This document shows positions 43,981-47,448 of a stretch of DNA of 64,000 nucleotides, piece by piece. The stretch is from an uncultured Fretibacterium sp. GTDB lineage: Bacteria; Synergistota; Synergistia; Synergistales; Aminobacteriaceae. The notes under the pieces were generated by a model, which saw only the letters and a list, made by a program, of their open reading frames with translations, did not search any database and was not told where the DNA came from. The stretch lies in contig CAMGZM010000001.1 of assembly GCA_946183145.1 (NCBI GenBank), positions 248,001 to 312,000 on the forward strand, written 5' to 3'. Each line of letters begins with the position of its first letter. Position 1 is the first letter of the stretch. A program made the position numbers and the translations under genes.

Positions 43981-46722
43981 ATGAAGATACTGTTATCACT
44001 AATATTGACGCTCGTAACGATTACAACAGCGGGCGCGGACACAATGACATTGCGCGAAAAAGTAGGGCAGCTGTTCGTGATTCGCCCGGATCATCTCGAC
44101 ACAACGTTAACGAACGAGCAAATCTACAGCAACACCAAGTACGGCGTGAAGAAAGTTACACCCTTAATGCGTGAGACAATGAAGCAATATCCTGCGGGAG
44201 GGTTCGTGATTTTCCGCAAGAATATTGACAGCCCTTCACAGCTCAAAAAATACATGAATGACTTGAAGTCTATGTGCAAAATTTCTCCCGTTATGGCAAT
44301 TGATGAAGAGGGCGGACAAATAGCACGGCTCGCAAATCACAAGGCTTTCAACCTCAGGAAGTACGAAAGCATGTCAGCAATCGGGAAATCCGGCCATGTG
44401 AAAGAAACCGCGTCATACATAGCATCATACCTGAAAGATTACGGCTTCAATCTCAATTTCGCGCCAGTAGCAGACATCAACACTAACCCGCAGAATATTG
44501 TGATCGGTGAACGTGCATTCAGCGACAATCCCGCAGAAGTCTCAAAACTTGTTGGCGAATATCTTGACGGACTTCACGAGCATAACATAGCAGGAAGCCT
44601 GAAGCATTTTCCCGGGCACGGCGACACGAAAGCAGATACGCATGATGACTCTGTAGCGGTCTTCAAGACATGGGACGAGCTTTTACGGGCGGAGATAATC
44701 CCATTCCGCGACAATTTGAGCAAAGCCGATACGGTAATGACAGCTCATATCACGATGAAGAATGTTACGGGTGATAATTTGCCCGCAAGTATTTCACGTG
44801 AGATTGTTACGGGGAAATTGCGCGGTGAGCTCGGTTATGACGGAGTAATAATCACTGACGCGATGAAGATGGGAGCAATCCGGAAGCATTACACATCATC
44901 AGAGGCTGCAATAATGGCGATTGAGGCGGGAAATGATATTATCCTGATGCCGTATGATTACAGGGAGGCTTTTGACGGAGTTGTAGAGGCTGTGAAGTCA
45001 GGAAGAATATCCGAGTCAAGAATAGACGAGAGCGTGAAAAGAATAATGAGGCTGAAAAAAAAAATGAGCGGCGATAAATTAACGTGGTGGCAGAAAGGCG
45101 CAGTATATGAGGTATATCCGAAAAGTTTTCTTGACACAGACGGAAGCGGGACGGGTGATATTCGCGGAATAGTCTCAAAGCTCGATTACCTTCATGATTT
45201 GGGCGTAAATGCTATATGGCTGACTCCTGTATACCCTTCACCGATGATCGACAACGGCTATGACATCTCAGACTACACAGGAATCGGCGAAAATTTCGGG
45301 ACAATGCCGGACTTTGACGAGTTAATACGCGAGGGGAAAAAGCGCGGTATACGCATCGTTATGGATTTGGTGTTCAATCACTGCTCAGACCAGCACAAAT
45401 GGTTTCAGGAGTCAAAATCCTCACGGGACAATCCTAAATCTGACTGGTTCATTTGGCGCGACCCTAAAGAGGACGGCACAGCCCCCACAAACTGGCGGAG
45501 CATATTCGGCGGTTCTGCGTGGGAATATGTCCCTGAACGTAAGCAGTACTATCTTCACACATTCGCCCGTGAACAGCCCGACCTTAACTGGGAAAATCCT
45601 GAAGTGAGGCACGCACTTTATGACGCGGCTAAATTCTGGCTCACAAAAGGCGTGGGAGGCTTCCGAATTGACGCGATAACATACATCAAGAAGCCTGAAG
45701 TTTTTGCTGACGGAAAACCCGACGCTGAAGACGGCTCTGTGAACATCCACAACATGACAGCGAATCAGCCGGGTATTCTGGAATTTTTGCACGAGTTCAA
45801 ACGCGAGGTGAGAGACGGCCGGGACATTTTCACAGTCGGCGAGGCTAACGGAGTTTCGGCGGATGAGCTTCCTTTGTGGGTTGGTGAAAACGGAGTGTTT
45901 GATATGCTCTTTGAGTTTTCTCACGTAACACTGCCTTTCAATGACACTGAAATTTGGTGTCATCCTGTCGAATGGAAGTTGACGGACTTGAAGCGCGCAA
46001 TCACTGACAGCCAGAAAGCAACGAGTCATAACGGCTGGTATCCTGCATTTTTCGAGAATCACGATCAGCCGAGGGGAGTAAATCACTTTTTCCCTGAGAA
46101 CGCAGACCCGGTGAAGGCCGCGAAATGTCTCGGAACAATATTGCTCACATTGCGGGGGACTCCGTTCATATATCAGGGTCAGGAGCTGGGAATGACTAAT
46201 TACGCGTGGAAAAATATAGATGAGATTGACGACATACAGACGCGGGGACAATATGATTTAGCGTTGAAGGAAGGATTTGCGCCCGATGAGGCCATGAAGT
46301 TTGTGCGGTATTTCACACGTGATAACGCCCGTACCCCTATGCAATGGACAGCAGGAAGTAACGCGGGGTTCACGTCTGCAACACCCTGGCTTCCCGTCAA
46401 CCCTAATCACATTACGGTTAATACTGAGAATGAGTCGGGAGATTCTGAGTCGGTCTTGTCGTGGTATAAGACTCTGTTATCGATGAGGAAGAATAACCCT
46501 GTTTTGACGATGGGAAATTACCGGGAAATTTTTGCTGACAGCGAGGAGATTTTTGCGTTTGCGCGCGAACATGAAGGCCGTGAAATTATTGTTGCGGTGA
46601 ATTTTGCGTTGAAGCCCGTGAAAGTGCCTGATGAATTATCGGGAAGGAAATTGATACTTAGCAGTGAGAAAGAGAATGACCCGTCTGAATTTGGAGCATT
46701 AGAGGCAAGAATATACGAGTGA
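43981..46722 (+). CDS. NagZ-type GH3 beta-N-acetylhexosaminidase joined to a GH13 alpha-glucosidase
   Basis: 913 codons. Residues 1-20 are a signal peptide. Residues 23-358 form a complete NagZ-like GH3 domain: AIDEEGGQIARL, SLKHFPGHGDTKADTHDD with the His/Asp catalytic motif, and VIITDAMKMGAI with the nucleophile Asp. After R-L-K-K-K the frame crosses ten As (45055-45064) and continues from Met-362 as a complete GH13 enzyme of the oligo-1,6-glucosidase/trehalose-6-phosphate-hydrolase type (WWQKGAVYEVYPKSF start; catalytic G-G-F-R-I-D-A, V-G-E-A-N-G and E-N-H-D-Q). Each half has the normal length of a separate enzyme. With nine As the first would end in TGA overlapping an ATG for the second. 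So this is a true fusion, a slippage product or a base-count error. The two activities have no obvious shared substrate. Confidence 0.85.
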   Translation: MKILLSLILTLVTITTAGADTMTLREKVGQLFVIRPDHLDTTLTNEQIYSNTKYGVKKVTPLMRETMKQYPAGGFVIFRKNIDSPSQLKKYMNDLKSMCKISPVMAIDEEGGQIARLANHKAFNLRKYESMSAIGKSGHVKETASYIASYLKDYGFNLNFAPVADINTNPQNIVIGERAFSDNPAEVSKLVGEYLDGLHEHNIAGSLKHFPGHGDTKADTHDDSVAVFKTWDELLRAEIIPFRDNLSKADTVMTAHITMKNVTGDNLPASISREIVTGKLRGELGYDGVIITDAMKMGAIRKHYTSSEAAIMAIEAGNDIILMPYDYREAFDGVVEAVKSGRISESRIDESVKRIMRLKKKMSGDKLTWWQKGAVYEVYPKSFLDTDGSGTGDIRGIVSKLDYLHDLGVNAIWLTPVYPSPMIDNGYDISDYTGIGENFGTMPDFDELIREGKKRGIRIVMDLVFNHCSDQHKWFQESKSSRDNPKSDWFIWRDPKEDGTAPTNWRSIFGGSAWEYVPERKQYYLHTFAREQPDLNWENPEVRHALYDAAKFWLTKGVGGFRIDAITYIKKPEVFADGKPDAEDGSVNIHNMTANQPGILEFLHEFKREVRDGRDIFTVGEANGVSADELPLWVGENGVFDMLFEFSHVTLPFNDTEIWCHPVEWKLTDLKRAITDSQKATSHNGWYPAFFENHDQPRGVNHFFPENADPVKAAKCLGTILLTLRGTPFIYQGQELGMTNYAWKNIDEIDDIQTRGQYDLALKEGFAPDEAMKFVRYFTRDNARTPMQWTAGSNAGFTSATPWLPVNPNHITVNTENESGDSESVLSWYKTLLSMRKNNPVLTMGNYREIFADSEEIFAFAREHEGREIIVAVNFALKPVKVPDELSGRKLILSSEKENDPSEFGALEARIYE
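45055..45064 (+). repeat. A10 homopolymer at the GH3/GH13 junction
   Basis: Ten As followed by TGAGCG. A10 keeps one reading frame; A9 gives AAA TGA (stop) overlapping ATG AGC (start); A11 stops five codons past the tract. Confidence 0.97.
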
Positions 46723-46770: not shown

Positions 46771-46781
46771 CCCCCCCCCCC
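46771..46781 (+). repeat. C11 homopolymer upstream of the 46840 gene
   Basis: Eleven Cs lie 58 bp upstream of the start of the Gly/Ala-rich protein gene. A TATACT (46794-46799) is 12 bp downstream, so the tract covers the -35/spacer zone of a possible promoter. Such tracts are prone to length change. Confidence 0.95.
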
Positions 46782-46839: not shown

Positions 46840-47448
46840 ATGGGTCTCGGTAAATGGATAGTAGGCGGATTAGTTACAGCGGTTGCGGCACCGTTCATAC
46901 TTCCTGCGGCGGCGGTTACGGCTGTAGGCGGGGCAATTGCGGCAGGAGCTGGAGCGGTTGCTACAACTGCGGCGGCTGTCGGCGGTGCGGTTGCTACTGG
47001 AGCTGCTGCAGTTGGTGCGCTGGGTGCTTCTGCGTTGGCGACGGCTTCGGCGATTGGCGCAACGACTCTCATCGGAGGGATAACAATTTCGAGTGTGTTA
47101 GCTTGGGGCGGAGGTCTGTTTATTATTGGCGGTCTGACTGCTGGTGCAATTGAAAGTGCGAAAACAGAGGGCAGAAAGGAAGGCTACACAGAAGCGTCAC
47201 GCGAATATGAAGCAAAACTCAGAAATCAGGCAAAAGAGTTTTTCACACAGATTGCGGCGTTGAAGGAACAAATTGAGGGTTACAGGCTTCAGAGGGACAA
47301 AGCTCAGGAACTCGCAAAGAAAGCATTTACTCTTCTGGGAAAATTCGAGGGCTGTATCAGTGCCATGAAGGAGCAGGGAAGAAGCGTAACGGACGAAACA
47401 TTAGGGTACTACAAACAGTTATCGGACTTCACAGACAAGGCAGCATAA
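46840..47448 (+). CDS. Gly/Ala-rich membrane protein with coiled-coil tail, unrecognised
   Basis: 202 residues. Residues 1-105 are almost wholly Gly, Ala, Val, Thr and Ile with glycine-zipper-like spacing, enough for two or three membrane passes. Residues 106-202 are charged and helical with heptad patterning (A-K-L-R-N-Q-A-K-E-F-F-T-Q-I-A-A-L-K), suggesting a cytoplasmic coiled coil. No signal peptide cleavage site is evident. The start follows GGAGGGG. It lies 60 bp before the next unknown gene, and both share the same strand and a coiled-coil element, suggesting a two-gene unit. I do not recognise the family. Confidence 0.8.
   Translation: MGLGKWIVGGLVTAVAAPFILPAAAVTAVGGAIAAGAGAVATTAAAVGGAVATGAAAVGALGASALATASAIGATTLIGGITISSVLAWGGGLFIIGGLTAGAIESAKTEGRKEGYTEASREYEAKLRNQAKEFFTQIAALKEQIEGYRLQRDKAQELAKKAFTLLGKFEGCISAMKEQGRSVTDETLGYYKQLSDFTDKAA

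Follow-up and report, generated by a model that had tools for sequence, protein, structure and literature searches.

Ten consecutive adenines lie at the junction of two full-length glycoside hydrolases in the window (the whole 64,000-nucleotide stretch of DNA analysed here), and raise the question of whether the length of this run decides if the two enzymes are made as one protein or as two. We consider it probable, at roughly two chances in three, that the locus encodes an exported two-enzyme fusion that belongs to the genus, and that the A10 tract is a clade-limited lysine run tolerated at the joint, probably not a deciding switch. The features of the locus are collected in Table 1, together with a comparable tract from elsewhere in the genome.

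Table 1. Features of the fused gene, its joint and a second A10-bearing gene; positions are those of the window unless a contig or locus is named.
Feature	Position	Strand	Basis
Fused gene, exported GH3 (NagZ-type) + GH13 (alpha-glucosidase/oligo-1,6-glucosidase type), 913 aa	43981..46722	+	Open frame; Pfam; in frame in 25 same-genus genomes
Signal peptide MKILLSLILTLVTITTAGA, N-terminal	43981..44037	+	By eye; similar hydrophobic N-termini in fused relatives with known start
GH3 NagZ-type domain	44038..45063	+	Motif KHFPGHGDTxxDTH and D293 conserved in 22 fusions
Shine-Dalgarno-like GAGG, weak, 12 nt 5' of GH13 ATG	45048..45051	+	Duplex -5.6 kcal/mol, near second decile of internal ATGs
A10 tract at joint (AAA AAA AAA + A of ATG)	45055..45064	+	Sequence; A10 also in G030, G003, G029; A9 in G002
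ATG, possible start of free leaderless GH13	45064..45066	+	Sequence; same-spot ATG in many, not all, relatives
GH13 part	45064..46722	+	Catalytic D564, E621, D695 and R562 invariant in 22 fusions
TGA ending NagZ if tract one A shorter	45065..45067	+	Sequence
OAD_gamma (OadG/MmdD-like, PF04277) gene with A10 then TGATGTA	G000:C7:44997-45401; L113 1295-1702	minus	Outside window

The first-pass annotation described the joint itself accurately. Its ten As sit exactly where the GH3 part gives way to the GH13 part, and with ten As the frame remains open through both enzymes. The joint reads AGG CTG AAA AAA AAA ATG AGC, and the bases that follow the tract are TGAGC. As had been stated, a tract of nine As would bring the GH3 frame to a TGA that overlaps the ATG of the GH13 part, and a tract of eleven would end it early (K-N-E-R-R-stop). 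The further remark that this ATGA arrangement is used throughout the window is correct in that the arrangement occurs, but slightly overstated: about 29 of 284 same-strand neighbours overlap by 4 nt, as counted with longest-start gene calls over 452 kb of the contig. At the joint, a coupled ATGA pair is found only in the hypothetical A9 version of the gene; the split relatives that do occur have TAA-ATG or a longer overlap. The overlap created by nine As is also peculiar to the window species; the other A10 species have TGT after the tract.

Both halves of the fusion have the features of complete enzymes. Pfam assigns residues 23-358 to GH3 (PF00933) and residues 378-845 to GH13 (alpha-amylase, PF00128). 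The joint is essentially without a linker, as solved GH13 chains (alpha-glucosidases) align with the window protein from residue 366-368. In an AlphaFold model of the fusion, which is of only moderate confidence (mean pLDDT 72), the final GH3 helix ends at residue 362; since GH13 begins at 366-368, a slipped product would be a whole NagZ. The GH3 part resembles the beta-N-acetylglucosaminidase NagZ in having a single PF00933 barrel, the KHFPGHG...D..H motif with the Asp nucleophile, and an end directly after the barrel. It differs in being exported by a signal peptide, in being fused to GH13 and in scoring below the NCBIfam cut-off for beta-N-acetylhexosaminidase (NF003740, 176 versus 207 bits). 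The GH13 part contains the catalytic Asp, Glu and Asp of PF00128, and its best solved relatives are alpha-glucosidases and oligo-1,6-glucosidases (PDB 2ze0, 1uok), a specificity assigned by homology only. It is homologous to these enzymes over its full length from their first residues; unlike them, it stands behind NagZ and is exported without a leader of its own. The catalytic residues of both enzymes are kept in all 22 fusions that were aligned.

The distribution of the fusion was followed in 43 genomes of the genus, including the window genome (G000; 2.55 Mb in 25 contigs; Synergistaceae). The two genes are fused in frame in 25 and adjacent but split in three. In the remainder, GH13 is encoded elsewhere with its own signal peptide (eight genomes) or stands behind an exported C39-peptidase-like domain (two); one genome is too fragmentary to assign and four have no close GH13. 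The A10 tract occurs only in G000, G030, G003 and G029, in frame in all four, and the proteins of the last three are 76-88% identical to the window protein. The other 21 fusions have no A-tract; their joints read, for example, AAG AAG AAG ATG (G031), AAA CAG AAA ATG (G006) or AAA GAA AAA TTA AAA (G019). Two of the tract-free genomes, G022 and G040, belong to the same clade as the A10 species and lack the run through substitution.

These counts do not bear out the proposal that tract length decides between fusion and splitting. The first-pass annotation had named related genomes with a fusion, no A-tract and no split forms as evidence that would speak against it; tract-free fusions are indeed the majority, and in G023 and G033 it is a TAA-ATG, in the absence of any tract, that separates the two genes. 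Split forms do exist, and one of them agrees with the proposal: in G002, which is close to G029, the tract has nine As and the two halves, each intact, lie in different frames. It does so as a single case and not as a general rule. Judged from these genomes, the fusion is a genuine and normal state in the genus, with or without a run of As. No NagZ-GH13 fusion was found outside the genus among 188 Synergistota genomes, and a contig scan, which reaches close relatives only, gave full-length matches solely in Synergistaceae/Fretibacterium records. The top literature matches likewise included no report of a NagZ-GH13 fusion.

Some joints retain what may be traces of separate genes. In G005, G021, G039 and G026, AAGGAG lies 9 nt before an in-frame ATG at the joint (-9.2 kcal/mol), as it does in split G023 and G033. 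The persistence of a good Shine-Dalgarno sequence and ATG at these joints suggests that the fusion arose through loss of the stop codon between coupled genes. The trees do not settle this polarity: G023 and G033 fall near the base of the GH13 tree with modest support, and the NagZ tree places G033 elsewhere.

Export of GH13 by way of the fusion, as proposed, fits the relatives well, with signal peptides judged by eye, because stand-alone GH13 orthologues have signal peptides of their own. By this measure, each of the ten non-adjacent orthologues in the genus either begins with a signal peptide or follows an exported C39-like domain. Those with their own signal peptide are found in G010, G042, G034, G008, G038, G018, G014 and G041, as well as in the outgroup G054; in G011 (L103) and G035 (L093), the same GH13 follows the C39-peptidase-like domain (PF13529) instead of NagZ. 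GH13 adjoins glmS in fused, split (G023) and C39-fused (G035) genomes, which indicates that the locus is constant and the N-terminal exporter changes. Export therefore looks like a constrained property of this enzyme. It is not absolute, given that GH13 has no signal peptide in the three adjacent-but-split genomes, which would leave it inside the cell.

The tract is exceptional in its own genome. In 452 kb of contig C1, it is the sole sense-strand run of at least eight As within a gene, whereas synonymous shuffling predicts about 20 (Poisson P of so low a count, about 4e-8; counts are approximate, as genes were called as the longest open frame). The joint likewise supplies the one KKK triplet of 22 that is spelled AAA AAA AAA. 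Runs of at least ten As number 12 in the 2.55 Mb genome, nearly all of them intergenic, and only three sense runs of at least nine As fall within genes: besides the NagZ-GH13 tract, an OadG-like gene contains an A10 and a TnpB-like transposon gene an A9. All three lysine codons of the tract are AAA in the four A10 species, compared with 7 of 35 other shared lysines. This constancy (about 1%, ignoring relatedness) is a mild hint that the tract is retained, offset by its absence from G022 and G040.

Two further runs were recorded in passing. The TnpB-like gene (PF07282) with A9 is L175 (G000:C19:13248); the use of slippage has been reported chiefly from genes of mobile elements (PMC1088944). In G030, an A10 lies inside a gene that resembles a type I restriction methylase by eye (L184, G030:C1:514948), where a slip would truncate the product.

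The OadG-like gene, which holds the only other in-gene A10 of the window genome, provides an internal yardstick. By eye, its neighbours are a carboxyltransferase-like and a biotin-carrier-like gene, an order known from sodium-pump decarboxylases, for example methylmalonyl-CoA decarboxylase. Its tract, usually within GAA AAA AAA AAT GAT, has ten As in 38 genomes and nine in G018 and G038, and TGA comes next in all 40 same-genus genomes; this TGA stops the +1 frame immediately, after the membrane helix. Among 37 aligned genes, 6 of 52 conserved degenerate positions use a single codon, and five of the six follow one another in the tract, where they encode E-K-K-N-D. No run of seven or more As occurs in those OadG genes that were read in other genera of Synergistota, and no literature on an OadG/MmdD slippage tract was found. 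On codon and tract conservation, this site is a strong candidate for programmed transcriptional slippage that would yield a short form, and a much stronger one than NagZ-GH13. Measured against a tract frozen in all 40 genomes, the NagZ-GH13 tract looks tolerated rather than programmed.

The possibility nonetheless has to be weighed that the NagZ-GH13 tract is itself programmed, with A10 kept so that the fusion, free NagZ in the periplasm and GH13 in the cytoplasm are made in fixed proportions. Runs of nine or ten As are long enough for bacterial RNA polymerase to slip on (PMC6260861, PMC1088944), and this coding-strand homopolymer exceeds the threshold of about nine A or T. Stops are close by in both other frames, with an immediate TGA in -1 and, in +1, a TAA after four codons. 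The tract is kept in four species and is the only in-gene sense run of at least eight As in the 452 kb, and its genus may use the device, as the perfectly conserved OadG site suggests. In these respects it recalls dnaX of Thermus thermophilus, in which transcriptional slippage occurs at nine As inside an in-frame gene (PMC1088944, PMC5009743): the unslipped transcript gives the long protein, and a slipped one stops early in either frame and gives a shorter protein. Unlike in dnaX, slippage here is putative and the run is missing from most homologues with the same fusion: only 4 of 25 fused genomes have it, and it is missing twice within its clade. The TGA after the tract is not common to the other A10 species, whereas that of OadG is invariant. 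A search for stable RNA structure downstream of the tract found none (z = +1.3), which speaks against a programmed site, though slippage needs no such structure. Ribosomal frameshifting aided by downstream structure was rejected on the same result, although a weak effect may exist. We regard a programmed ratio as unlikely. A broader version, in which the genus deliberately uses A9-A10 tracts, with OadG/MmdD as the frozen case and the younger NagZ-GH13 tract setting exported versus cytoplasmic glucosidase, is tentative and still rather unlikely. The GeneTack survey (PMC3711429) describes recoding gene pairs whose counterparts in other species form a single fused gene, and the present pair resembles these in having fused and split versions in related genomes; it differs in that the fusion is common and the split exceptional.

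The tract may instead slip during replication and act as a heritable on/off switch of the fusion, producing phase or strain variation. The A9 and out-of-frame halves of G002 would agree with this, as would a length-variable poly-C tract just downstream of the gene. However, four species share exactly ten As, with no instance of A11 observed, and the G002 assembly is fragmented (about 370 contigs), such that A9 there may reflect an error or a single fission event; we consider a switch improbable. It is very improbable that leaderless GH13 is made from the fused mRNA by internal initiation in place of slippage. The AAGGAG and ATG of G005, G021, G039 and G026 (L019-L022) would suit such a start, but an ATG is missing from the joint of many fused relatives, and in the window species the Shine-Dalgarno sequence is weak and poorly spaced, on which grounds a strong internal start there was rejected. 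The first-pass annotation had also allowed for an assembly error, whereby the real tract would have nine As and the two genes would be distinct. Homopolymers do collect errors, and G002 shows A9; this explanation is nevertheless extremely unlikely given that four species, each assembled separately, have an in-frame A10 and that 21 tract-free fusions are likewise in frame.

On the favoured reading, that of an exported fusion with a tolerated lysine run, the NagZ-type signal peptide would take GH13 across the inner membrane, and the A10 at the joint is a string of lysine codons that one clade of the genus has. The main product would be the 100-kDa fusion. The tract survives there despite the strong avoidance of such runs elsewhere in genes, most likely because the joint is the one place where slips do little harm: any transcript with one A more or less would still encode all of NagZ and reach a stop within a few codons. 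Slippage at the tract that releases complete NagZ is plausible from the sequence. RNA polymerase slippage would probably add minor by-products, namely exported NagZ on its own and perhaps a little leaderless GH13 started at the internal ATG. Slips at the DNA level may split the gene, as probably happened in G002.

Separately, the only poly-C/G run of at least eight in the window is a C11 tract at 46771-46781, in the gap that separates the fused gene from its neighbour at 46840; it is C13 in G030. It may lie in a phase-variable promoter or leader for the downstream genes of 202 and 364 aa, for which it is a candidate.

The locus would provide an example of how an enzyme fused behind an exported neighbour, cytoplasmic-looking in itself, can be exported without a leader of its own; the same GH13 appears to be exported by three routes within one genus. 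Its A10 would show where a genome that purges slippery runs can tolerate one. In addition, the OadG/MmdD tract opens the question of programmed slippage in a sodium-pump decarboxylase to a direct test.
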